From the IMG/VR virus record IMGVR_UViG_3300018868_000018, positions 1 to 39,730 of that record: 39,730 nucleotides of DNA. One strand, 5' to 3'. Source of the stretch: a virus. Below, in pieces: positions 12,779 to 37,409 of the stretch. The position numbers and the translations under genes are program-made. The notes under the pieces were generated by a model. It worked only from the letters and a program-made list of their open reading frames with translations. It was not told the DNA's origin and searched no databases. Every line of letters starts with the position of its first letter. Within the stretch, counting starts at the first letter, position 1.

Positions 12779-15700
12779 ATGCAACAGTTTACAGGCTATA
12801 TTAAGGATACTGTTGAGAATTCCATTATTGCAGATCCACAGAATTTATATGCTGTTGATAACAATAAACCATTGCCGTTTACTGCTTGGCTCTCGTACAA
12901 CAATGCACTCTATGAAGATACAGGTTCATATTTAAAGAATTATCAAGCGTACGTAAATGATTGGTTTGCTGCTAATAGCAGTAAATCTGATGGTAGGGGT
13001 GATTTTACACGCTCACTGTATGTTGATTTAATAAAAGAAATTTCAATAAATTTCACAACACCAGACGAAAAACGGTTTTTAACTAATCTTAATTTTACGA
13101 ATAGTAGAGACATGGCAACAGCTCTGCCTTTCTTCTCAAAGAAAATAAAAGATGTATGCTTGTACTTCTCAAGTGTACGGGATCATGTCAAACATGCATC
13201 TGTGCAGCATAACCTAAGAGGTTCAACGTTTGGTATAGAGACTGTTCTCTATAATGAATTGCTCAGATATCTGAGCACAGAAGACAGCTACATCACACTC
13301 CGTTCATTAGGAATGTCATTAACAGCCATTCGTGATTCACTCTCATTTAAAATAGAAGAGTTATATGATAGATACAGCAACTATTTTGATGTCAATCCTC
13401 AGACCCCTTTATCAGCATATGACAGCAGTTACGGGACAAGAAAAGAGTTTTTTGGTGCAAATGTAATTGATGTTGATCCTTATTTGTTTACCAATCTGGA
13501 GGGCACGATATCCACAGCAATCACTAACGCAATCACTGCATACCCTTTTTATCTCAATGAGCTGGGAACACTGTTCACAGTTAATCCCAAAGTAAGCGCT
13601 GATCAGCTCTATTACTTGCAAGATAGTGACTTTATTAGCACAATAAATGATGCATCATTGGAGAATCTCAACATTTTAAACAAACGCTTACTCACACAGA
13701 AATTCATAGGCACAGATTACTACTATCTTTCTACAGGCAATACAGCTACAAGTATTGTTTCAGGCTTATTATTCAAAGCAGCTAACGACTATGCAAATTT
13801 TGCAAACAAAAGATACCCCTCTATTGCAGCTGTACCAAGTAATAAATTTTTAATTAAGCCCACAGAACTCGGACTATTCTTTAAGCCCGATAAATTGGGC
13901 ATTCTAACCTTTACTAATTTTAACTTTTACCCAACAATCGATATAGAGAAACTCGCACCCAACTCTTTATATGTGTTTCCAGATCCCTTCAAACAAGGAA
14001 ACATTTCAGCTGAAACTGGCTCAGTGTTTGATACACCATTAAAGTTTGTTGAAGATATAACTCTAACAAAATCTGATGCATCTAATAACTATAGTTTTGG
14101 TGACATCATTTCTGATAGTAAATTGCAACTGTTCAGAGGATACCAATCTCGTGAACAGACTTTGGAATATTCTCATCAAGGACTATCTCGATATACTGAC
14201 CCAACAGATTTCTTTCAAGGTGAACGAAAGAACTTATGGGCCAATAATGATATCTTTCCTCAAAAACCTGCAGGGTTTTATGACATTGATGCGCGCACAA
14301 AAGCACTTCTACCCATAAATGAAACACTTGTGCAATACAAGAGTGATGTTTTCGGTAATGACTACGGGTTATATAAAAAGATATACAAAAATAAAGATTT
14401 AACAAGAGCACAGTCATTAGTTGATCAAGGTATATTTAGAAGCGATGCAACGATTTGTCTTATAGCTAATGGACACACATTTTATGATGCAATCTCTGGA
14501 TATAATTTTGATTATACTACATATGATCCTCTACGCAAATACTCAGGCATAATTACAAAAACAGCACCAACCCTGCAAGGGTTAGACGAACATTGGACAA
14601 AAGATCTTTCACTGTACAAGAATGGGCCACCCATATTAACACTCTCAGGTGTACATGTTGATTTTATACTATCTCAAAGATTTCAACCAGACTTATTTTG
14701 CGATAGTTCAAACTATATTTATAATAATTTTGATTGCAGTATATATGATTGTGTTTCGTTTGTACCGAGTACATCATCAATGTATCATGATCCATTAACA
14801 GATACATCTGAATTTGTATCTGATGACAGTCTTTTATACTACAACACTTTAATTGACGGAGCAGCAAGTCGCCGATCTTCTCCTCCAACCTACCGCCCTA
14901 GTTATCTTTACCGCCCAGACTTCACTTTCATGCCATCTGGCAGCACTGTGGGCCTGATGGATGGGTTCTACATGACAGTTGCAAGTGCTGATCCTTGCAC
15001 AGACATATATAGGTATCCAGATCCATACTTCCTTAAGAGCCCATTCTTTAATGTACCCACAAACAACAGACTATCAAAATACAACACAACGTTACCAGAA
15101 GTTACAGAAGCTGAGTCATTATATGAGGCAAGAAACAAGGTGTATGGTAGTTTTTACTTTAGAAACAACAATTCATCCACACTTCTGCCAGTTTCTGCAG
15201 CCTTGAGCGGTGTATTCATAAAATACAATTCTGAAATTCGTGAAGATGTTAACAACCGCATTATTAATTTTGACATGTTTTATGACTTGCTCTTCATTGA
15301 AACAGAGAATTATGTGTTGTTTGAAAAGCTTTACTTTAACTATGAAGATAACATGCTCTATGGTAATGCAAGAGCTGATACTGTAATATACAAGGGTGAT
15401 CATCGCGACTTTGAAGATATTTCATTGCCTTGGCTAAATGAAGCAAGAAAAGAACTGTTTTTTGTCAAGACAACATTATTTCATGATTTAAGTTGTTCCA
15501 ATCAAAAAATTGTGTATCCTGAGATTTATACTGTCAATATTAACAGCGGTGATGTGGTAAAGCTTTACCCTTTTAACAAGCATGTAACACGTGAAGATGT
15601 CAATACATATTCGTTGATTGAAACTGATCCTTATGTTAAGATTAATATTGTTGAAACTGAGAAGCCACTTATCAACTACAATGATGATACAAATTATTAT

Positions 15701-17926
15701 GTCATCTCCTTCTTAGGCAAAGATGTATCAAATCTGTTCTACGTGTACAGAACATCATTCAAGTACATTGTTGATAAGCTTGAAATTGTTGAAAATAGCT
15801 TCTTCAAGCCACGCGTTGATGTATATTCAGAAAATTTTTGTGACCCTGTAACAGGTCGTTATTTTAGAGAATACACTAACAAGTTTGATAATAAGGACGC
15901 AGGATACATTGATGATGATGGTACATTCACATTCAATATTGAAAATCCTGATCCGTTCCCTCCACATACCCCCACAATGACTGCAACACAGACACCCACT
16001 GTGACGCCAACACCTACACAGACACCCACAATAACTGTTACCCGTACTGTGACAATGACACCCACCAAGACACCTACTGTTACGCCAACTTACACCAGAC
16101 CTGCAACACCCACACCCACACCAACTATTACAAGTACATTGACATATTCTGTAACACCTACCAAGACACCTACACAAACAGTCACAATGACTGATAATCC
16201 AGATCCTCTGCTTGAACCGACACCACCACCTACTCGTACACCCACCAAGACACCCACTGTGACACCCACAATGACAAGTACACCCACCAACACACCCACC
16301 ATAACATACACATCCACACCCACATTGACCATTTCCGTGACCCCCACACGTACAGTTACAGGTTCTGTGCAACCTACACGCACTCCAACCATCACACCCA
16401 CTATGACACCCACACGAACACCCACATCCACCATTACACCAACTGCATCTGTAACATCTTCACCTACCGCCACACCGACGCGAACAACAACACCTACTGT
16501 GACACCTACTGTGACGCCCACACAAACTGTGACACCCACACACATTGTAATTGTTGAGCCTATACTTGATTTAGTTGCCACATACCAACCTACAGTGCCT
16601 TGTGTTAGAAACTTTATTACAAACAATTGCACAAACGGAGGATTTCAAGTTATTGTTGATGCTGGTGCATACAATCTTGTTGATGCCACTCAAGTAACAC
16701 TAATTATCAATGGCGGCATACACTCAACAGCCAACGTTATTAATGGGTATGCAACATTTACTCTTCTACAATTTGACGGCAATATGGCAGTTCGTGTGCA
16801 AGCGCAAAATAACTTTGGATACATAAGCAATATGCTCACTGTTGTTGTACCAGCTTATCCTGATACTGTGGCTGAGCCACCTGTAATAGCAGAACCGCCA
16901 ACTGTTCAAGTTGTATCTGTTAAAGCGCCAAGAACACCTTGTGGCGTCAACCCATATACAAATAAGTGTAGTTACGGAAGCACACGTCTACTTGTATATG
17001 CTGGCAAGCTATGGCAAAGCACTGAAAGACGCGCATCAAAAGTTACACTATACATCAACGACGTGCCATACGGGACAATTAACTGCACACAAAGCAATTC
17101 TTCCGGTAATTATAATTATGTTGATATCAACGAATACCTAGGATTTGATAGCGATACACAATATGCAATAAGAGCAGTTAATGAATTTAATACTCTTAGT
17201 CAGATAACATATGTGAAGATTCCTTCATATCCGTTCCCACCACCGCTCCCACCTGCGCCTCCCGTACCTTCTGTATCTTATACAATACTTAGAAATAATA
17301 ATTTAAACCTAAGAGAGCTTTATCTATCCATGTCTGGAGATAAAACTAATAAACCAGTAAATGCGACATTTAATATCAGCAACGACATTGGCAGTACTGC
17401 CATTAGTTCACCTGCAATATATACTGGCTCATGGCCTCAAGGATCAACTTTAACAATTAATAATAATAGTTACATTACTGGAAGAGGTGGTGATGGAGGT
17501 GCAGTCGCGACGTCAGGTAATCCAGGTGGACCTGCCATAATCCTACAGTATACTGCCACAATTAATAATTATGGCGTCATAGGCGGTGGCGGAGGTGGAG
17601 GTGGAGGCGGGAGACACAACAGTAGCTCATCATTCGCAGCGGCACTCTACAAGCCAGGCGGTGGTGGCGGTGGAGCTGGTATAGTACCGGGCTCTGGTGG
17701 CACTGGTAGTGGTGGATCAGGGGCCGCAGGAACAAAAACAGCTGGCGGAGCTGGAGCGGGGGGAAGAACCTTCGGAGGTGCTGGTGGCGCCCTCGGTCAA
17801 CCTGGTGCCGGGTCCTCCAGTGGCATAACTGCAGGAGGTGCCGCTGGTGCAGCTATTGTTCGAAACGGATTTGGACTAACACTTAATAACATAGGATCAG
17901 GAGTCGTATATGGTAGTACATCATAA
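12779..17926 (+). CDS. Giant virion protein: structural core, Thr-Pro linker, two Ig-like domains, glycine-rich adhesin tip
   Basis: A 1715-residue protein. The first ~1050 residues resemble, as I recall them, large baseplate-associated virion proteins of big myophages (near residue 85: [15 protein letters not shown]; near 100: K-R-F-L-T-N-L-N-F; near 120: [10 protein letters not shown]). Residues ~1061-1256 are a Thr-Pro linker. Residues ~1270-1360 and ~1377-1486 are two related beta domains, each starting with a P-C-x8-C pair and ending in V-P-A-Y-P or I-P-S-Y-P. Residues ~1500-1715 form a glycine-rich tip (R-G-G-D-G-G, then N-N-Y-G-V-I-G followed by ten Gly, then G-G-A-G repeats). The tip resembles the polyglycine-sandwich receptor-binding domain of T-even gp38-type adhesins. 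The protein probably anchors at the baseplate and carries a receptor-binding tip. It starts 5 bases after a late promoter. Confidence 0.8.
15962..16545 (+). repeat. Thr-Pro linker tract, interrupted
   Basis: About 195 residues of T-P-T-x and T-x-T-P units, coded by alternating ACN and CCN codons with almost no G on this strand. It is interrupted near 16183-16230 by an acidic/proline segment ([11 protein letters not shown]). It separates the structural core from the Ig-like and adhesin part of the same protein. Confidence 0.95.
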
Positions 17927-20880: not shown

Positions 20881-22566
20881 ATGTCAAATGTGATTAAAAT
20901 TACCAATCTTCCTCAACTAATGGGACCACCTCTGGCTAGTGACTTTCTTATTCTTCAAGGAGATACAGCAACATATAGAATTTCTGTTAATGATTTTCTT
21001 ACAAAATGGGATGAACAGAAGCTTAGTGATAATGAAGCAATAATGTCAATATCATCAGATAATCCTGGAATTTATGTGCGGCGCAATGGCAATGATGTCA
21101 CTCTATCAAACCATGGTGTTTTAACCCTTTCAGCCGGTGATGGCATTACCCTTTCAAACTCAACTGGAAATATCAAAGTATCCACCACAACATCTTCTTA
21201 TCAAACTCTCAAGGCTGCAACCATACAAGGATTGCCGAGAAATGCAGGTGCTTATGATTATAATGCTCTTATTTCTGCAGATTACAGTCATATTTTATTC
21301 GCTGGCAATAGCAAGAGCATGGGACTGTCACAGACACGAGAAGGCAGTTGCACTTTTAACATCATAGACCCCAGCGGTGACATGACAGATAAACATGCAT
21401 ACGATTGGTCATGTGTGTACAACGGTCATCAATACTGGGCTGGTCTAACTACTGAAAATCGAATTTTCTTAGGTGGCTCGTGGACACAAGGCAACGGAAA
21501 AGGGGTTACCCCTGAATATGTTTATTTTGATGTTGCTGAGAGCATTAGCCGCGTGGAGCTTGGCACTAATCCAAGAAATATCTTTGTACCATTCCACACA
21601 AGGGGTAATTTTGCGACAATGTTTATCATAGGTGACAATACTGAATTATATGGCTTTGGCCATAACCCATATGGCTGGCTTGCAACTAATACCACAGCAC
21701 CCAAAGCAACTGCAACATCTCTTGGCATCAGCGGTGTTAGAGACGTTGCTGCAAAAGGTGGCACTGTTCTTGTATTACAGAGCAATGGACAAATAAAAGC
21801 TGCTGGATATGGAGCAAATGGCGAAATGGGGGATGGTGGCAGAGCGCCAACTAATTCAACATGGCACACAGTGCAAAGTGATATTAACAAATATCCTTTA
21901 ACAAATGTCTCAACAATTGCAATTGAAAGCGCGGATACTGGCGCTTCATGTTTTGCAGTGGACACAGGCAATACTCTATGGGCTTGGGGCACTAATATCT
22001 ATGGGCAGCTTGGCAACAATACAACATCTGAATTAACGCGCGCGACTGTAGTAGCTAATAATGTTCACAAAGTTTATACTGGTGGTGGAGATTTTCCTAG
22101 CACATACTATGTGACAACAGATCGATTGAAGTTGTATGCATGTGGATACAATGGGTACGGGCAACTTGGCAATGGACTTGATGATGGCATCAGACGCAGC
22201 TTTATGAATGTATTTGATGCATCAAATTATGACAGTACAATAGCTACAGTTGCATGTGGTGGCACAAATAAATTCACAACAACACTGGTATTGCTTGAAA
22301 ATGGAAGGCTGTTTGCAGCTGGTTATATGCCTGGTGCCAAGGGGCTAGGAGATCATAGAGGCTGGTTGGAGGTTAACCCACCATTTGACTATAAAAATAA
22401 TGCCAAAACTGTAGATGTTGCAATCAATGGGGTTAGCAACGAATACACTATGTTTGCTATCAGCTCTGATGGCAATGTTGCAATTGCAGGGTTCAATAGA
22501 TCACTAAAACTTGGATCCACAGTATTGCCTGATCAATGGATCCCATCCTGGACTCTTATAAAATAA
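20881..22566 (+). CDS. Tail fibre protein with RCC1-type beta-propeller
   Basis: A 561-residue protein. The N-terminal ~115 residues look like a tail-fibre attachment region (K-I-T-N-L-P-Q-L, then Y-R-I-S-V-N-D-F-L, then L-S-A-G-D-G-I-T-L-S-N-S-T-G). From about residue 130 to the end there are eight strands of RCC1 type, x-x-x-x-G-x-N-x-x-G-Q-L-G. Examples are L-W-A-W-G-T-N-I-Y-G-Q-L-G (near 365), L-Y-A-C-G-Y-N-G-Y-G-Q-L-G (near 417) and I-K-A-A-G-Y-G-A-N-G-E-M-G (near 303). This suggests a seven-bladed propeller plus a closing strand. RCC1 propellers are protein- or ligand-binding platforms; on a fibre the likely role is receptor contact. It has no Thr-Pro linker, unlike its neighbours, and forms a single-gene cassette with its own late promoter. 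Confidence 0.88.
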   Translation: MSNVIKITNLPQLMGPPLASDFLILQGDTATYRISVNDFLTKWDEQKLSDNEAIMSISSDNPGIYVRRNGNDVTLSNHGVLTLSAGDGITLSNSTGNIKVSTTTSSYQTLKAATIQGLPRNAGAYDYNALISADYSHILFAGNSKSMGLSQTREGSCTFNIIDPSGDMTDKHAYDWSCVYNGHQYWAGLTTENRIFLGGSWTQGNGKGVTPEYVYFDVAESISRVELGTNPRNIFVPFHTRGNFATMFIIGDNTELYGFGHNPYGWLATNTTAPKATATSLGISGVRDVAAKGGTVLVLQSNGQIKAAGYGANGEMGDGGRAPTNSTWHTVQSDINKYPLTNVSTIAIESADTGASCFAVDTGNTLWAWGTNIYGQLGNNTTSELTRATVVANNVHKVYTGGGDFPSTYYVTTDRLKLYACGYNGYGQLGNGLDDGIRRSFMNVFDASNYDSTIATVACGGTNKFTTTLVLLENGRLFAAGYMPGAKGLGDHRGWLEVNPPFDYKNNAKTVDVAINGVSNEYTMFAISSDGNVAIAGFNRSLKLGSTVLPDQWIPSWTLIK

Positions 22567-22647: not shown

Positions 22648-22857
22648 ATGACGCCTACGCCTACCCAGACGCTTACATCCACCCCGACAACTACACTTAC
22701 CCCGTTGCCTACACGCACAGCTACTGTGACCTGGACACCAACTGTAACCCCAACCATTTCATACACAACAACATTTCAAGTTACTAACACACCAACCAAC
22801 ACAAAAACTGCTCGTCCTACACGGACACCCACTCCAACAATCAATACAACACCTACA
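22648..22857 (+). repeat. Thr-Pro tract at the N-terminus
   Basis: About 70 residues of T-P-T-x units right from the start codon, ahead of the first unknown domain. Confidence 0.9.
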
Positions 22858-24537
22858 ATCTCTCAATTTTTTGAAAATGAACTGCTCTTTCGTACAGAAA
22901 ACTTATTAAATTCGTCGTTTGCTGAACCATTCAGTCTGTACCGTCAAGCACTTGAATATCATATTGAAAGTAAACTCAATATTGTGCCTGAAATGCGTGC
23001 GTTTAGAATCAGACTCACAAACCATTGCCGCACATTGCATGTGGAACATAAAATTAAGGATAAATTTATTACCCTATTTACTAAGGATCTAAGAGATAAA
23101 ATTAAATTTCCCCCTAGTGTATATCCTGTAATATCGTTCGCAAAACCACTTTTTGATCCAACAGATACAATGCTTAAAATTAAGAGTTTAAATTCAAATT
23201 CTTTCTTTACTGATGTGAAGTCGGAGTTTACTCCCACCCCCATGCCTACAATCACCCCAACAGAAACAAATCTTGTCATGACTGCCACCCCAACAAGTAC
23301 ACGACCACTTACACCAACACCAACTGTCACCGTTACATTAACTCCAGGATTGACAAGGACTGTTCCTCCACCAACTGTGACACCCACAGTAACAAGAACG
23401 TTGACAATGACACCTGGATTGACACAAACCTATACACCCACAGCCACACCTACACCTACAAATTCCAACACCCCCACTGTCACACCTACTGGGACACCAA
23501 TGCGTACTGCCACCCCAACACCAACAGTGACAAAGACTTTGACCCCTACAAGAACAGCAGTCCCGACTCCAACAATAACCAAGACTGTCACATTAACACC
23601 CACACCAACCATGACAGTGTCACAAAGCCCAACACTTACACCTACAACCACATCTACTCTAACCATTACACCTACCATAACCATAACAAATACACCCACA
23701 GAAACCATAACAAGCACACCCACAGAAACACCAGCCTTTACATCTACCAACACTGCTACACCTACTCAGACACCAACATTAACTATCACAAGCACCACGA
23801 CCCCAGAACCAACAGTAACAGGCTCACCCACCCCGACTCCAACACCTACCCCACCTGCAGACGTTATGTTCCGTGCAGGAGCAAATCTGCATGGCCAGGT
23901 TGGTATTGATGTACCACAACCTACAAATTCTAACACTCCAGATGTAACTGTTACACCGACAAACACACAAACCATAACATCATCACCTACACCAACCATA
24001 ACATCCACATTGACGCCCACAGCCACAGTCACTGATACACCGGTCCCAACACCTACGCCATCTGTGACTTGCACTCTAACGCTCACTGTTACAGACAGTT
24101 CAACACCCACACAAACACCAACAGTAACAGTGACTCCAACACCTTCTGTAACATGTACTGTCACCCCAATGGAAGAGCTAGTAATTACTCCAACACCAAC
24201 AGCATTTACTGATAGCTACATTGCTGGCCTCAATTTTATTGCTGCACAGGATTCAACAGTGCTTGGTTTGTACACAAGATCCAGTGATGCTGATCCGTTT
24301 GCCAGCTTCACAGGACCTAATGACAATACAATTTCATGGCAAATAATTTCTACTTCTTCATCAACGGACTTAAGTGCATGGGTATTGTTTGATGCGGCAA
24401 GTAATTCTAACTTATACTATAATGTTTCTGAAGTGTTTGATCCAGCTGAATGGAATTCGTTAACAGATAAAGGCAACCCGACTGTGGTAAATGTAACTGC
24501 ACCAAGGGTAACCCCAACACCCACAGGGAGCCCTTAA
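22648..24537 (+). CDS. Thr-Pro-linker fibre protein with two unknown domains and an orphan RCC1 motif
   Basis: A 629-residue protein from ATG 22648; GTG 22630 would add six residues. I prefer the ATG because GGGAG lies 11 bases upstream. It begins directly in a Thr-Pro tract. An unknown, partly helical ~120-residue domain follows (nt 22864-23229; F-F-E-N-E-L-L-F-R-T-E-N-L-L-N-S). Next come a long Thr-Pro tract, one isolated RCC1-like motif (F-R-A-G-A-N-L-H-G-Q-V-G, nt 23851-23925), more Thr-Pro, and a C-terminal beta domain (nt 24211-24510). It ends in a short T-P-T-P-T-G-S-P. Unlike most neighbours it has no recognisable anchor domain, and the start region holds a 9-bp duplication in another frame, so the true N-terminus may have been lost. 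It is probably an accessory fibre. Confidence 0.75.
   Translation: MTPTPTQTLTSTPTTTLTPLPTRTATVTWTPTVTPTISYTTTFQVTNTPTNTKTARPTRTPTPTINTTPTISQFFENELLFRTENLLNSSFAEPFSLYRQALEYHIESKLNIVPEMRAFRIRLTNHCRTLHVEHKIKDKFITLFTKDLRDKIKFPPSVYPVISFAKPLFDPTDTMLKIKSLNSNSFFTDVKSEFTPTPMPTITPTETNLVMTATPTSTRPLTPTPTVTVTLTPGLTRTVPPPTVTPTVTRTLTMTPGLTQTYTPTATPTPTNSNTPTVTPTGTPMRTATPTPTVTKTLTPTRTAVPTPTITKTVTLTPTPTMTVSQSPTLTPTTTSTLTITPTITITNTPTETITSTPTETPAFTSTNTATPTQTPTLTITSTTTPEPTVTGSPTPTPTPTPPADVMFRAGANLHGQVGIDVPQPTNSNTPDVTVTPTNTQTITSSPTPTITSTLTPTATVTDTPVPTPTPSVTCTLTLTVTDSSTPTQTPTVTVTPTPSVTCTVTPMEELVITPTPTAFTDSYIAGLNFIAAQDSTVLGLYTRSSDADPFASFTGPNDNTISWQIISTSSSTDLSAWVLFDAASNSNLYYNVSEVFDPAEWNSLTDKGNPTVVNVTAPRVTPTPTGSP
23230..23850 (+). 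repeat. Thr-Pro tract, long
   Basis: About 207 residues of T-P-T-x units between the first unknown domain and the isolated RCC1-like motif. Confidence 0.9.
23842..23891 (+). repeat. 50-bp exact direct repeat, copy 1
   Basis: Identical over 50 bases to 26016-26065 in the next gene. It codes the end of a Thr-Pro tract plus P-P-A-D-V-M-F-R-A-G-A-N-L, the start of an RCC1-like motif. Outside the repeat the sequences diverge (H-G-Q-V-G-I-D versus Q-G-Q-I-G-V-D). Confidence 0.95.
23926..24213 (+). repeat. Thr-Pro tract after the orphan RCC1 motif
   Basis: About 95 residues of T-P-T-x units leading to the C-terminal beta domain. Confidence 0.88.
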
Positions 24538-24540
24538 ATA
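24533..24540 (+). promoter_or_regulatory. Probable late promoter (CTTAAATA)
   Basis: CTTAAATA overlaps the preceding stop codon and lies 14 bases before the ATG at 24555. The same octamer precedes the gene at 17952. An AGGTGA between promoter and ATG could serve as a Shine-Dalgarno sequence if transcription starts upstream of it. Confidence 0.45.
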
Positions 24541-24554
24541 CAGGTGATTTATAA

Positions 24555-26390
24555 ATGAATACTCTTGCTGTTCTATTATCTTCGAGCGTACCATATCTAG
24601 AGAACGAGTTTCTCAATGGTTATCTCTTTATTGATCCTGTTTATGAAGATCTAATAGAGTATCCTTTATCTGCCACAGGCGACAACATTGAAACATTATC
24701 TGGTGCCTATACAAAGAGAGCTAATGCTGGCTTATTCTTTCCATATGGGTATCCTATTATTGACACTGTTACATGGGTAGATTTACCATTATGCAAGGGT
24801 GACACAACCATCGTCTTCATGCCATCTGCACTTGAAGCTTCAACCTTTGCCATCTTAAAGATAGTATATAATTTCGGTGATGGTGAAATGACAGAGATTA
24901 ATAAAGATATTATTGAGAATATTAATCAAGTTGATCCTAAGCAAGCCTTATCTCCAAATTATGTCAATGTATCACATTTATACAAACAAACAGGCAGCTA
25001 CATAGCTACATATTCTCCTTCAATCAGTGTTATCAATGGTAACATGACACAGAATACTTTTAATTTTAGACTGTGTGTATTGCAAGACTCTCTTTATGAA
25101 ATTGAAAATATACATCTTCTAGAAGCCAGACAATTACCATTCAGTCGTGTCAATAATAGAACTTATGAGAATGATTTGATGGTTTATGAGTTAAAGGGGT
25201 TAAATTATCTCTCTAATGTTACGATTTCTGATGAGATTGTCACGCCTACCCCGACACTTACAATAACAAATACACCTACCCTTACACCCACTATTACATT
25301 GACACGCACATTGACACCGTCCCTAACATTTACACCAACTATTACTCCAACCTTGACAATGACTGGTACAGTCACACCTACACGCACCATGACACCTACT
25401 GTAACACCTACAGTCACCATTACCCGCACTGCAGTGCCTACACAGACACCAACAACAACAGTCACAACAACACCTACTTTGACAAGAACACAAACTGTTA
25501 CACCTACAATGACACGTACTATTACACCTACAATGACACCTACCAACACACTAACAGAGACACAAACACCAACTGTAACGCCTACAAATACAAAGACAAG
25601 TACACCGACACTATCACCAACAAGCACTGTCACAGTATCGGTCACAACCACAGTGACGATGACACCTACACCTACACCACCTGCAACGCCAACAGAAACC
25701 AATGCACCAACCAGCACACCTACCAATACACTTACAGAGACACTGACACCAACTGTGACCCCCACACCCACAGTCACAAATACAGTCACAGTGACATCTA
25801 CCAACACACCTACAGAGACACCCACATCAACACCTACACAGACATTCACACCTACACAGACATTCACACCGACACAGACACCTACAGTTACAGATACACC
25901 GACGCAGACACCGACACTGACTATGACACCCACTGCGACACCTACACCTACAGTTACAGATACAGCCACACCTACGCAGACAGTGACACCTACAAACACA
26001 CCCACACTGACCATGACACCTACCCCACCTGCAGACGTTATGTTCCGTGCAGGAGCAAATCTGCAAGGTCAAATTGGTGTAGATATACGTGCTGTGACAC
26101 CGACATCAACGCTCACACTAACAGTGACACCTACCAACACGCCTACAAAGACAGTGACACCTACCAATACACCTACACTGACTAATACACTTACTCAGAC
26201 CATGACACCTACACAGACACCCACAATCTCGCAGACTGCCACAAATACACCTACCAACACTGTCACAAATACAGTCACAAACACACCTACTAACACACTC
26301 TCCAACACACCTACGCTGACACTCACAATTTCACCCACACAGTCACCCACACTTACCCCAACACTAACACAATCAACCCCAGTAGAATAA
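24555..26390 (+). CDS. Thr-Pro-linker fibre protein with N-terminal PKD-like domain
   Basis: A 611-residue protein. Residues 1-225 form a folded N-terminal region with a PKD-like core (I-V-Y-N-F-G-D-G-E-M near 113-122, then V-S-H-L-Y-K-Q-T-G-S-Y-I-A-T near 138-151). The remainder, from about residue 228 to the end, is almost pure Thr-Pro repeat, broken only by one RCC1-like motif P-P-A-D-V-M-F-R-A-G-A-N-L-Q-G-Q-I-G (nt 26026-26085). There is no C-terminal globular head, so the protein ends in the repeat (T-Q-S-T-P-V-E). This could be a truncated fibre that lost its tip, or a stalk that presents a partner such as the separately encoded RCC1 protein directly downstream. Start at ATG 24555. Confidence 0.82.
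   Translation: MNTLAVLLSSSVPYLENEFLNGYLFIDPVYEDLIEYPLSATGDNIETLSGAYTKRANAGLFFPYGYPIIDTVTWVDLPLCKGDTTIVFMPSALEASTFAILKIVYNFGDGEMTEINKDIIENINQVDPKQALSPNYVNVSHLYKQTGSYIATYSPSISVINGNMTQNTFNFRLCVLQDSLYEIENIHLLEARQLPFSRVNNRTYENDLMVYELKGLNYLSNVTISDEIVTPTPTLTITNTPTLTPTITLTRTLTPSLTFTPTITPTLTMTGTVTPTRTMTPTVTPTVTITRTAVPTQTPTTTVTTTPTLTRTQTVTPTMTRTITPTMTPTNTLTETQTPTVTPTNTKTSTPTLSPTSTVTVSVTTTVTMTPTPTPPATPTETNAPTSTPTNTLTETLTPTVTPTPTVTNTVTVTSTNTPTETPTSTPTQTFTPTQTFTPTQTPTVTDTPTQTPTLTMTPTATPTPTVTDTATPTQTVTPTNTPTLTMTPTPPADVMFRAGANLQGQIGVDIRAVTPTSTLTLTVTPTNTPTKTVTPTNTPTLTNTLTQTMTPTQTPTISQTATNTPTNTVTNTVTNTPTNTLSNTPTLTLTISPTQSPTLTPTLTQSTPVE
25240..26025 (+). repeat. Thr-Pro tract, longest in the window
   Basis: About 262 residues of T-P-T-x units in one run, including S-T-P-T-Q-T-F-T-P-T-Q-T-F-T-P-T-Q-T repeats. 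The coding strand is nearly free of G for about 800 bases. Confidence 0.95.
26016..26065 (+). repeat. 50-bp exact direct repeat, copy 2
   Basis: Identical to 23842-23891, 2174 bases apart, in the same orientation and reading frame context (end of Thr-Pro tract and start of an RCC1-like motif). Confidence 0.95.
26092..26385 (+). repeat. Thr-Pro tract, C-terminal
   Basis: About 98 residues of T-P-T-x and N-T-P-T units running to the C-terminus with no following domain. Confidence 0.9.
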
Positions 26391-26413: not shown

Positions 26414-27631
26414 ATGAACCAGCCATTTGAAACAAACTTTCTAGCAAACACTGGATTATGGGATTCCATTGATGGCAGTGTATATCATACATTAGCTATT
26501 GATTCAATTGATAGACTGCATGGTACTGGATCCAATGATCTACGCAATCTGCAAGCAGATGTTAGATTAGATAATATCGGCGTAATTACCACATCAGAAA
26601 ATTTTGTTGGCAGTCTGCTGGGTTTAGATGCTACTCCTTCAACCACACACTTTTATCTGGTCAGTTCCTTTAGTCTCATACCACAAGTTTCATCCACAAT
26701 GTATCAAGATGTTACAACAGCACGAACTGCAACACCATTTTTCAATAAAGTCGCCTGCGGACTAGTACATTCAGTCGGACTTGCTGGTACAACCATGTAT
26801 GTCACCGGGTACAATGGCCAAGGTCAACTTGGCCTTGGTCCTAATGTGCTGAGCACATCAATGTGGACACCCATCACAGGTAACTGGATGGATATAGCTG
26901 CAGGCCTTCTGCATACAGCAGCTCTAAGCAGCGACGGTACATTGCTATGTACTGGTCTCAATCAAGATGGTCAGTGTGGGCAACCAACAACTGAACCAAC
27001 TCTCAATATATTTACACCAGTAAGAAATACTCGAGTATTTTTAACTGATAATTCTGTACCAATCACACCACCGAGATTCAATAAAGTTCATTGCGGTGGA
27101 TATCACACCATTACCTTGTCTGCTGCTGGCCCTGCAAGTTCCTACAACATGTTTACAATGGGCAATAATCTCAGTGGACAAATTGGTTTAGGTGTTGGCA
27201 TATCTAATACCGCGTATCTACAGGGTGATACAAGCAATAAAAATTGGGCAGCTGTAGCTACAAAACATGTGCATTCCTTGGCACTTGATAATACCGGTAA
27301 AGTATACAGCACAGGTTACAACAATAGAGGACAATTAGGTACAAATGATACCACAACACGCTATGTCTGGACCGATCTCGGCACAAGCAATCCTTGGAAC
27401 ACATTGTCCATCAAATCAATTGCTGCAGGATATGAGCATTCCATTGTTATTGATGCAGAGAATCATGCATATTCGGTTGGAAGAAATCTAGAAGGTCAGC
27501 TTGGAAATAACGGTGATTTTAGTGAACAAGAAACTGCATGGCAAGTGCTTTCCGGTTCATTTAAAGCAGCTTATACTGGCGCTTTCACTTCTTTCTTAAT
27601 ATACGGGCCATATTTAGGTTCTATTAGATAA
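26414..27631 (+). CDS. RCC1-repeat (beta-propeller) fibre-associated protein
   Basis: A 405-residue protein with at least five RCC1 repeats: M-Y-V-T-G-Y-N-G-Q-G-Q-L-G (near 129), L-L-C-T-G-L-N-Q-D-G-Q-C-G (near 177), M-F-T-M-G-N-N-L-S-G-Q-I-G (near 248), V-Y-S-T-G-Y-N-N-R-G-Q-L-G (near 296) and A-Y-S-V-G-R-N-L-E-G-Q-L-G (near 351). Each is preceded by the usual A-A-G-x-x-H-S/T-x-x-L strand. About 95 residues precede the propeller and may attach it to the virion. There is no Thr-Pro linker. It follows the headless Thr-Pro stalk gene and has its own late promoter. A likely role is a receptor-binding or decoration propeller; no enzymatic function is suggested. Confidence 0.88.
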   Translation: MNQPFETNFLANTGLWDSIDGSVYHTLAIDSIDRLHGTGSNDLRNLQADVRLDNIGVITTSENFVGSLLGLDATPSTTHFYLVSSFSLIPQVSSTMYQDVTTARTATPFFNKVACGLVHSVGLAGTTMYVTGYNGQGQLGLGPNVLSTSMWTPITGNWMDIAAGLLHTAALSSDGTLLCTGLNQDGQCGQPTTEPTLNIFTPVRNTRVFLTDNSVPITPPRFNKVHCGGYHTITLSAAGPASSYNMFTMGNNLSGQIGLGVGISNTAYLQGDTSNKNWAAVATKHVHSLALDNTGKVYSTGYNNRGQLGTNDTTTRYVWTDLGTSNPWNTLSIKSIAAGYEHSIVIDAENHAYSVGRNLEGQLGNNGDFSEQETAWQVLSGSFKAAYTGAFTSFLIYGPYLGSIR

Positions 27632-27656: not shown

Positions 27657-30600
27657 ATGGTTGTTAAGGAGTTCACGCCTGCTACATTTAAGCCGCTATC
27701 TGCTGTATATACACCTGATCCAACAGTCAAGTTTAATGAACGCATATTCTTTAGCGAGAATAATGTAGCATTTCCGTTGAATCAGGTTTTTTATAAATCA
27801 AACGATAATGCTATTAATAATTTTTCCAATTTGTTTCTAACACGAAACGACTCAATTGGGAGCAACATATATGTTGAGAATTTAAAACCATTGCCTGATG
27901 AAGGGTTTTCAACATATCTCGTTGCAAATGCATTACTAGGCATCAATGTCTTCTCGCGGTACTGGGTTGTCGATGAACCTGACATTGATATAAAAACCGC
28001 GACAATCTCACTCACCGGAAGATCTGAATACATTGATAACAGATACTTTTTCGACATAACACTCCTTGACGATAAGTTTTGCAAAATTTCCCATGAAAAT
28101 TTTAATATTACAAGATATCTAACAGTTGACTATTTGGGTAATTTGATATTTTGTAAAGATTCACAGTCTGATTATCTTGGTCGATACAGTCCACAAATAT
28201 TTTACTACTTGTATGATAGAGATTCTGATTACATTGTAATATATAAAAATGTTAATGATATCGCAAAATACTTGACAATAAATGAACAAGACAATCTCGT
28301 TCTGACTGACCCCGTCACAGGCTTTGCAGTGCCGTTTGATTTAAAATCAATTTTTAAATGCATTCAACGCTCTGATCCAGCAAATGTATCGAAAATATAT
28401 GACTCATGGGTAAGTTATGAGAAAACATTTAAAACAAACTCGACAGAAATTAATGACATAAACAGTTATGATGATCTTAAATCAAACCTTCTTGTTAACA
28501 GTGAATTCTACGGTATTACAGGAAACGAATTGCCAGTTAATATTTTATCTCTTAAAAATACATTTACACCAGATCATTTACAGGCCAGAAATGCTCCTTT
28601 TTATGATGAAGACCTTGTTAATTTCAGAGACTATAAGAAAATCTTTTCTGGCTCTCGCCAAAACTATGGTAATGATAATATTTCTTTTAGCTTTGAGACA
28701 TTCTCAACAAAAATCTTAATTAAAAATGATAAAATAACTTATTTCCATATGCCTACTGACACATATCCGTTTGATCGAATCAATATTCGTGATGCGGGGT
28801 TAATTGAGGCAGGTGCAACTGCTGCTGATCATCCACTTAAATCAGATTTAATATTTAAAAAGCGCGGAGATTACAAAAACTCTTCATATTTTGGTGATTC
28901 AATTGATGAACAGACAGGTGATTTCTTATGTAGCTGGCTTTCAGGCAATGGAGATATTAATGCGCGACCCATATGGGTGGATAGGTATTACAATCCTAAG
29001 AAAGTTTCTTTCTATAATGCTCTCACAGCAGATAATTTTAAAGCAATGTATTATGTACAGGAATTTGATTGCCGATTGGAAAAAATACCAGCTGCACAAT
29101 ATTATGATGTATTTGATGTACCGTCAGCAATGGTATTTGAACCTGGTTGCTATTATGCATACTATAAGATTGGTCCACAGGGAGTAACGCAACGCATCAG
29201 CTCATTAAAAAATAATTTAATACAACGCAATCTTAATAACTTCAAAACCACAAATAACATTGATGTATTTGAAGTAATTGAACCAGATACAGAGTATGTG
29301 TTTGATGGCAATCGATACAGTGTAACAGAAAGCCTCTCAACAATTGGTGAAAGTTCAGAATTCACACTCATTTTTGATCTGTATAACAACGATTGGTCAA
29401 AGCCTTTTGGCAATCAAATCATAGGCAATCTCGACAAATATGGCTTTAGCGTATACAATTATGTACCGAATACTTCATTATTATTCTTAGCCAGTAATAA
29501 TGAACTCAACATAACTAATACTGATTTTAAATCTCTGCGCAAAATAACGTTTGATACACCTATCAAATACATATTTAAAACTCACGATTTTACTGACTAT
29601 CATATTCTTTTTGAAGATGGTAGTATTAAGAAATACAATGCTAACAATGTTCATGTCACAACAAAAAGCATCTATGGCAATACAACAGACATAAAAGATT
29701 ATGATACGTATGGTCATATAGTTTTAATGTTATCAGCAAATGACAGCGGACCATTAGGCAGACAAGGCAGAACAGCAATTGATGTGCAAGGTTATAATCT
29801 ACTTACTGATGAACAGTATGACAACCTAACTAAGAATTATAATTCTATACGCTTTGTCCCTGGTTTGTCGTTTACAAGAAATATTTCAAGCGCTAATACA
29901 ATTCACGCCGCTACAGTTCAAGAAAGCGATATACTTTTCATAACTGATGGTGATAAAGCAGAGAGACGAGGAGAGCAGATCTATTATCTAAAAGATAACA
30001 GTATTATGTACTGGAATCTAAGTACAAATAATGTGCAACTAGTTCATTATGCAAAAACAATAGATGATTTTAGTATCGATTTAGATGGGTATATTTGGGC
30101 TCTTGATAATAAAACTAATTATCTCAAGATTGATCCTAGTACTTTTACAGTAATGTTTTCTGGTATCTTTCCTAGTGAATACAACAATCAAAAAATTAAT
30201 TTTATTAGCGAATTTGAAAAGAGCGATGTAAACAATAGAGCTGTATTCACAAGAGCAAATAGCTTAAGCTCCAATATAATCGAGTATGTTATAATGCCTG
30301 TGCACAGCAACGCATACACCACAACATACATGTCAGGCATGACAGGATCATTTGGTAAGATAACAAACAGTGAGTATATGCGCGAGTATATCCATGATTA
30401 TTATCCAGCAAGCACTCTGATCATCAAAGCAGTGGTCGCCACATACAATAATTATAATGATATTATTCTGCCAGAGGTTAAGTTTGACTTGACACAACTG
30501 GACCCTGGGTATCATAATTTTGCCATAAGATTCAACTGCAATATTGGTCAACTTGATCTGTTTGTCAATGGCATGACAACAAACACAACACGGTTTATGC

Positions 30601-34904: not shown

Positions 34905-37409
34905 ATGGCCGTAGAAATTACAAATGATACAGTAGTAAAGATAATTGTTCGCCGTGGACAAGAATCTGAGCGATTAAAAGTGATCTTATCAGAAGGTGAA
35001 GTTGGTTATACTGTGGATCAGGCTCGTCTTTACGTTGGTGACGGAGTCACACCTGGTGGTCATGTTGTTGGCCAGCGTAATTTTGGACCAGTACCAGTGC
35101 CCGGTGAATATATACCCTTCTTAAGGGACGGTGATTTGATTTACAATTCAAATACGAAAGATTTCTTAAGTTATCAAAAAGGTGCTGGTTTATATTCCTT
35201 GCAGCCACAGCCGTATGCGGGAAGTATCGAACGTGGCTATACTGGTGAGTTCCGAGTTGCTGCTGCTCTGCTTGGACCTGCTTTTTCTCTGGCATACCGT
35301 GACAGTGGTACAATCACACCATCTTCAATTACAAAAACATACAATCAAATAGATTTTGACTCGCGCTACATGTCTCTCAGCGCACCGTATGGCAGTGTCT
35401 ACATTGGAAATGTACACCGCCGCACAGTAACAAACAATTTAAGTGCAAAGCTCAATGTACAAGAAAATATTTTTGTAAATAGCAACTCAAACAGTTATCA
35501 GTTGCAAATGTATGGCTATAATGCCAAAGCATTGGGTACAACTATTGATGCTATTAGTGGTAATTTCCACATTCGTGGCACAGACGACCTCACCTTACGC
35601 GCCGGGCGTTTGAGTTTCACGGAGCAGCCTCAGTTTACCATCACACAAGGTGGATTTATTGCCTTAAATCCAACTGCACCATTTCAAACATATCCAAATG
35701 CAGGGTTAAAAGTGTATGGAATAACAAGGCACCATGATGATACCTTTGTTGATGGCATGCTTTCTGCTACTGAAATTCTAGCTGACGATGGTACCATTAA
35801 TAACAACTTCACTATCCATGGCAATCTCTCAGTTCTTGGTACAACGACATACCTAGATACAACTGTGACAACAACCAGTGCTCTTAGTGTGCTCAATTAC
35901 AATGAGAACATGTGCGCCATGCTTGTACGTCAGGGATCACCGACAGCTAATCAAACATTAGCGAGATTCGAAAGCTCTGCTGGTAATAATCCTGTGGTAT
36001 CAATCAAAGACGGGCCATATTTTGGCTTCAATACCGATCCACAACAAACATTCATACAAGGATCTGACACAGCAAACTTCTGTGTGTCAGGTAGCTTCTT
36101 CATTTCACCAAATCCACAAGTAACAAACAGCAGAGTTATCATTAGAACTGGTCTTGCAGGTTCAATCAATCTGCAGTGTGCAGGCAACAAGGTTGTACTC
36201 AATAATGATCAACGTGGTTTAGAGTTAACAGGCAATTTTAAAGCTACTGGTAACTCCGAAATTCAAGGCAACGAGACTGTTCTTGGAAATATGACAGTTT
36301 ATGGTACAACAACACTAGGCAATGCTGCTGAAGACAGCGTTGTTGCCAATGGCATTGTAACAGCGACATCAAATGTATCTATTTACGGCACAACCACCTG
36401 TTATAGCCCCGTCACAATTCAATCTTCACTTGATGTGCGTGAAACAAGTTATCTTGGAGCTGATGTTGCAGATCAATGCATTGTGACTGGCACTCTCATC
36501 ACCCGCGGTGCAGGTACAACAAATATAGGTGGCAATTTAACAGTCGCTGGGCCATCAGAGTTCACTGGCGCAGTTAGAGTAAAAAATAACATTACTATTG
36601 ACAATACAATGTATGCTGGTCAAGGCAGAGTGTATGGGAACATGGTGGTTGATGCACAAATTCAAGCTAATACTGGCAGCATTACTGGTCTCCTGCAGTC
36701 TGGTAGTCTCACAAGCATGGGCAACGTAAGCTTGGGCAGCTCAGTAAATGCAGTAACAGTTAATGGCAATTTAAATGCCACAACTGGCAGAATTACAAGT
36801 TTAAATTTAACTGTTAACAATCTTGCAACTATAAATTCTCTTGGTGTCAATACAACTGCTAATATTGCTGGTGCAACTACTATTGGTGGTGCAGTCACAA
36901 TTGCTAGCACTGCAAATATTAGTGGTGCAACTACCATTGGGGGTATATGCTCAATTGCTGGTAGCACAGGTATTGGTGGTGCAGTTACAATCGCCGGTGC
37001 CACAGGCATTAGCGGTGCACTAGCCACTGAATCATCCACAAGATTTGGATATAATGGTGGTAATTCACCTTGTATTATACATGGTGATACAACAGTCAAT
37101 GGGTATCTCAATGTAAAGTATGATGTCACAGCATATTCAACATCAGATATCAAGTTAAAGAAGAACATCAGATGCATTGACAGTGCACTTGACAAAGTTG
37201 AAAAGTTGAGAGGCGTTAATTTCGAGTGGAACGAGAATTCTGAAGTCTTTACAGGCAAGGATATTGGTTTAATTGCACAAGAAGTTGAAAACATTTTGCC
37301 TGAAATTGTTGTAACACGAGATACTGGCTACAAAGCCATCAGATATGAAAAAGTAATTCCGCTGCTAGTAGAGGCCATCAAAGAGTTGCGAAAAAAAATC
37401 AAGGAATAA
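34905..37409 (+). CDS. Tail fibre with Mtd-like N-terminus and C-terminal self-cleaving S74 chaperone
   Basis: An 834-residue protein. Residues ~10-50 repeat the Mtd-like block (I-I-V-R-R-G-Q-E-S-E-R, L-S-E-G-E-V-G-Y-T-V-D, A-R-L-Y-V-G-D-G-V-T-P-G-G). The middle 300-730 is a beta-rich shaft with many hexad-like strands (N-L-S-V-L-G-T-T-T, N-M-T-V-Y-G-T-T-T, and a run of A-T-T-I-G-G-A-V-T-I-A units near 645-705). The last 89 residues are an intramolecular chaperone (peptidase S74, endosialidase-type): S-D-I-K-L-K-K-N-I with the expected catalytic dyad Ser747/Lys752, then G-V-N-F-E-W, D-I-G-L-I-A-Q-E-V, and a trimeric coiled-coil end. It should trimerise the shaft and then cut itself off before Ser747. 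AGGAG 9 bases upstream supports the start. Confidence 0.93.
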   Translation: MAVEITNDTVVKIIVRRGQESERLKVILSEGEVGYTVDQARLYVGDGVTPGGHVVGQRNFGPVPVPGEYIPFLRDGDLIYNSNTKDFLSYQKGAGLYSLQPQPYAGSIERGYTGEFRVAAALLGPAFSLAYRDSGTITPSSITKTYNQIDFDSRYMSLSAPYGSVYIGNVHRRTVTNNLSAKLNVQENIFVNSNSNSYQLQMYGYNAKALGTTIDAISGNFHIRGTDDLTLRAGRLSFTEQPQFTITQGGFIALNPTAPFQTYPNAGLKVYGITRHHDDTFVDGMLSATEILADDGTINNNFTIHGNLSVLGTTTYLDTTVTTTSALSVLNYNENMCAMLVRQGSPTANQTLARFESSAGNNPVVSIKDGPYFGFNTDPQQTFIQGSDTANFCVSGSFFISPNPQVTNSRVIIRTGLAGSINLQCAGNKVVLNNDQRGLELTGNFKATGNSEIQGNETVLGNMTVYGTTTLGNAAEDSVVANGIVTATSNVSIYGTTTCYSPVTIQSSLDVRETSYLGADVADQCIVTGTLITRGAGTTNIGGNLTVAGPSEFTGAVRVKNNITIDNTMYAGQGRVYGNMVVDAQIQANTGSITGLLQSGSLTSMGNVSLGSSVNAVTVNGNLNATTGRITSLNLTVNNLATINSLGVNTTANIAGATTIGGAVTIASTANISGATTIGGICSIAGSTGIGGAVTIAGATGISGALATESSTRFGYNGGNSPCIIHGDTTVNGYLNVKYDVTAYSTSDIKLKKNIRCIDSALDKVEKLRGVNFEWNENSEVFTGKDIGLIAQEVENILPEIVVTRDTGYKAIRYEKVIPLLVEAIKELRKKIKE

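Follow-up and report, generated by a model that had tools for sequence, protein, structure and literature searches.

Recombination between conserved motifs has been described for the distal tail-fibre loci of T-even phages, to go by the title under which PMC3797505 lists Tetart et al. (1998). Two further systems bear on the locus considered here, namely concerted evolution between paralogous segments and the RCC1 repeat or propeller (PF00415, PF25390). The locus consists of two neighbouring fibre genes, here called A and B, of an uncultured T4-like virus, and the two share an exact 50-bp direct repeat. We propose, as the probable history of this repeat, that an old pair of motifs has been kept by selection, one in each gene, that conversion recently copied about 50 bp between genes A and B, and that the identity of the DNA is a by-product.

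Two fibre genes and an exact repeat

The window, by which we mean the whole stretch of DNA that was analysed, is a complete IMG/VR record of 39,730 bases. In it, genes for a T4-like clamp loader and baseplate wedge precede a series of large fibre-type genes. The N-terminal domains of genes A and B are unlike, each is joined to a long Thr/Pro linker, and this linker and the motif MFRAGxNxxGxxGxD are all that the two genes have in common (Table 1). A tblastn search of annotated phages gave no matches for gene A, for the motif or for the gene at 27657. Among the other genes of the window, 12779-17926 encodes a large Thr/Pro-rich fibre protein that has at its C-terminus (residues 1500-1714) an adhesin domain of the T-even gp38 type (PF05268, E 9e-13), and the product of 34905-37409 combines a C-terminal Peptidase_S74 chaperone (PF13884) with a major tropism determinant domain at its N-terminus (PF18454, E 7e-8).

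Table 1. Features of the fibre locus, in window coordinates.
Feature	Position	Strand	Description
RCC1-like protein, second	20881..22566	+	Upstream of gene A; Pfam
Gene A	22648..24537	+	Thr/Pro-rich linker protein with N-terminal and C-terminal domains; pieces 74% and 51% identical to the relative's orthologue
Exact repeat, copy A	23842..23891	+	50 bp; encodes TPTPPADVMFRAGANL
Motif in gene A, MFRAGANLHGQVGID	23866..23910	+	From aa 407; same position in the relative's orthologue
Gene B	24555..26390	+	Thr/Pro-rich linker protein; its N-terminal domain of 228 aa is 75% identical in the relative's orthologue
Exact repeat, copy B	26016..26065	+	50 bp, identical to copy A
Motif in gene B, MFRAGANLQGQIGVD	26040..26084	+	From aa 496; aa 485 in the relative's orthologue
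RCC1 beta-propeller protein	26414..27631	+	Directly downstream of gene B; Pfam PF25390 E 2e-44, PF00415 E 3e-24
RCC1 strand, MFTMGNNLSGQIGL	27149..27190	+	Sole other window match to the four-copy motif profile, E 0.009

An earlier, sequence-only reading had described the repeat as joining the two fibre genes in register, and this is borne out: the copies are identical, and both lie in reading phase 0 of their own genes. The repeat is maximal, the copies differing already at the adjoining base on either side, and it is more than twofold longer than any other exact repeat in the window (the next measures 23 bp). The other maximal exact repeats of at least 22 bp are 22-23 bp long and lie within Thr/Pro low-complexity DNA. 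When up to 3 mismatches were allowed, a 26-nt core was found at only 2 sites in the window, which are copies A and B, against 0 expected (100 shuffles). The 50-bp identity is thus far above chance level.

The repeat starts in Thr/Pro linker DNA, its bulk encodes PPADVMFRAGANL, and it includes the front half of the motif. The flanking sequences, which had been read as different, do diverge, but not entirely, as the 9 codons 3' of the repeat remain homologous (HGQVGIDV / QGQIGVDI, 67% at the nucleotide level). It had also been pointed out that recombination between the copies would delete 2174 bp in frame. This holds on paper: although 2174 is not a multiple of three, the shared phase 0 of the two copies means that the deletion would preserve the frame.

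A collinear relative and the age of the motif pair

Searching IMG/VR with the N-terminal domain of gene B identified a single relative, a 56,939-bp contig. Between window positions 14 and 39126 the two are collinear, and their proteins, compared one by one, are mostly 55-90% identical. Genes A and B are both intact in the relative, and their order is unchanged. Its A orthologue carries EVMFRAGQNRFGEVGVDIP and its B orthologue EAMFRAGINMHGQLGLDIP, the same island in two copies that are not identical to each other, and none of its exact repeats is longer than 22 bp. Because the motif is present in both of the relative's orthologues at nearly the same positions, and because the copies there are not identical, the motif pair is older than the split of the two phages, and only the window phage has the 50-bp identity.

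The motif forms an island within the Thr/Pro-rich linker of each fibre gene, and a motif scan finds one strand-sized island per gene. Across the four copies (A and B of the window, A and B of the relative) 9 residues are invariant, those given as letters in MFRAGxNxxGxxGxD, and we infer that selection acts on the motif. Degenerate motif patterns searched against IMG/VR found only the relative, ordinary RCC1 proteins and one chance match (L017); the motif was not found in bacterial and archaeal genomes, nor in other fibre genes of the window, apart from ordinary RCC1 propeller strands. Distant gp6 relatives led to 47 further loci, whose available flanks were screened for frames rich in Thr/Pro or of RCC1 type; the screen retained only this same phage and the relative already known. 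The relative's gene B (L003:8001-10304) also contains a second short island twice, as GEDESKNYR in the linker and DEAKNY at the C-terminus, which was not seen in the window's gene B.

Probable gene conversion and its rivals

With the motif pair being old, what made the two copies identical at the DNA level? Over the 9 codons around MFRAG, copies A and B of the window are 100% identical, the window and its relative's orthologues are 63-67% identical, and the relative's own two copies are 70% alike. Perhaps some older homogenisation took place in the relative as well. Elsewhere, in four orthologous fibre-region proteins compared between window and relative, the same codon is used at only 0.41-0.52 of identical amino acids. 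Under the window's codon usage alone, the probability that 16 of 16 codons would be identical is about 2e-7. The comparison of the four copies rests on two genomes and few informative sites, and within it 8 sites with a 2:2 pattern group by genome (3 of them in the loosely alignable Thr/Pro linker), 0 by gene and 1 crosswise; at synonymous sites in invariant residues, the counts are 3 by genome and 0 by gene (P about 0.02 under codon usage alone). Within a genome the copies therefore resemble each other more closely than they do their orthologues, more weakly so at synonymous sites alone, at two loci that both predate the divergence of the window phage and its relative.

The improbable codon match and the grouping by genome together argue for gene conversion as the process behind the 50-bp identity. 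The idea of recent gene conversion, already raised in the sequence-only reading, gains support in that the motif pair is old and found in both of the relative's orthologues, with the DNA identity confined to the window phage. As to mechanism, each of the two genes in this T4-like phage would have held one old motif copy within a Thr/Pro-rich fibre linker, with protein-level selection preserving the motif in both. In the window lineage, homologous recombination between the copies, probably by the phage's or the host's own machinery, would then have copied about 50 bp from one gene into the other without exchange of the flanks. On this mechanism the DNA identity would be a by-product of copying, as opposed to a dedicated signal for recombination. 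The genome fragments examined, from which most of the genome is absent, showed no RecA-type recombinase.

The same grouping by genome would also follow from late duplication, in which only one gene had the motif at first and each lineage separately acquired it in the other. We regard this as unlikely, since the two A genes both have the motif from aa 407 onward, the two B genes have it from aa 496 and aa 485, and two independent insertions at such matching positions are improbable.

Another explanation is that the 50-mer is kept identical as an active shuffling point, by recombination that swaps or fuses fibre genes between phages. Such a role is reasonable in kind: genes A and B could, on paper, fuse in frame, and the T-even fibre loci cited above recombine at conserved motifs. 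Here, however, the proposal finds no support and we judge it quite unlikely. The relative is intact and collinear across the region, and neither a fusion gene nor the 50-mer was found in IMG/VR. An exact search of IMG/VR with a 47-nt core gave no match, and no chimeric A/B fibre genes joined at the shared segment occur among the IMG/VR matches. Moreover, the DNA of the 50-mer is not conserved in the relative, and hence no DNA-level signal has been preserved.

A technical origin, in which reads from two similar but differing copies were collapsed to one consensus at both sites, must be weighed too, given that the record is an IMG/VR contig. We consider such an assembly artefact very unlikely, as the gene order around both copies is that of an independent contig and the flanks differ a few bases away from the repeat. 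A second record, IMGVR_UViG_3300019093_001236 (L021), is the same phage (99.975% over 16,150 bp) and ends at window position 16150, before the repeat. At its other end it reaches 1240 bp upstream of the window.

Finally, preservation of the 50 bp as a DNA or RNA signal, either a hairpin or a diversity-generating template, is highly improbable. A 6-bp hairpin (CCTGCA/TGCAGG, z -2.1) can be drawn in the repeat, but we reject it as the cause of the identity because the relative's copies do not have it. The relative already shows the motif with free synonymous change, and a reverse transcriptase, the mark of a diversity-generating retroelement, was sought in the genome fragments and not found. Gene conversion remains our preferred reading, and the 50-bp identity is likely to be a fairly ordinary instance of it, without sign of a switch or deletion function.

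The motif, its RCC1 neighbours and known systems

What might the motif itself do? Our best guess is that it is a docking or structural peptide. Seven RCC1 matches (Pfam) are spread over the gene directly downstream of gene B and the gene upstream of gene A, and in the relative the sole extra match to the motif profile is the orthologous RCC1 strand (E 0.003). Even when hits with E as high as 1 are allowed, the Pfam RCC1 model PF00415 matches neither gene A nor gene B, and it does not match the 37-aa pieces either; because it fails on them, the islands are classed as RCC1-strand-like and not as RCC1 repeats. A propeller has several blades, and each gene holds a single strand-sized island. AlphaFold modelled the downstream RCC1 protein with a mean pLDDT of 36, too poor to judge blade completeness.

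The motif may dock to, or mimic, the neighbouring RCC1 propeller. In a fuller version of this idea, speculative and in our view improbable, each Thr/Pro fibre would use its orphan RCC1-like strand as a docking peptide, either inserting it into the adjacent propeller or mimicking one of the propeller's blades with it; three neighbouring fibre proteins would assemble via the shared strand, and conversion would keep the copies compatible. Should the motif prove to be a docking element, the assembly of such unusual fibres would be partly explained. In any case, our findings draw attention to MFRAGxNxxGxxGxD as an uncharacterised motif of Thr/Pro-rich fibres beside RCC1 propellers.

How does the locus compare with known systems? 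It shares with the T-even distal tail-fibre loci the presence of short conserved segments in variable T4-like fibre genes, with evidence of recombination there. It differs in that what the evidence favours here is copying between adjacent genes of one genome, with no host-range domain swap seen. As to RCC1 repeats and propellers, the GxNxxGQxGx part of the motif is similar to a single strand of an RCC1 blade, and true RCC1 proteins are encoded by the genes adjoining A and B; the difference is that each Thr/Pro linker holds one strand-sized piece that Pfam does not recognise. Concerted evolution between paralogous segments offers the same likeness of copies within a genome over that between orthologues, although here the tract is very short (about 50 bp) and the host genes have unlike N-terminal domains. 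The locus shows that a very short motif can be common to two fibre genes whose N-terminal domains differ, and can be homogenised between them.
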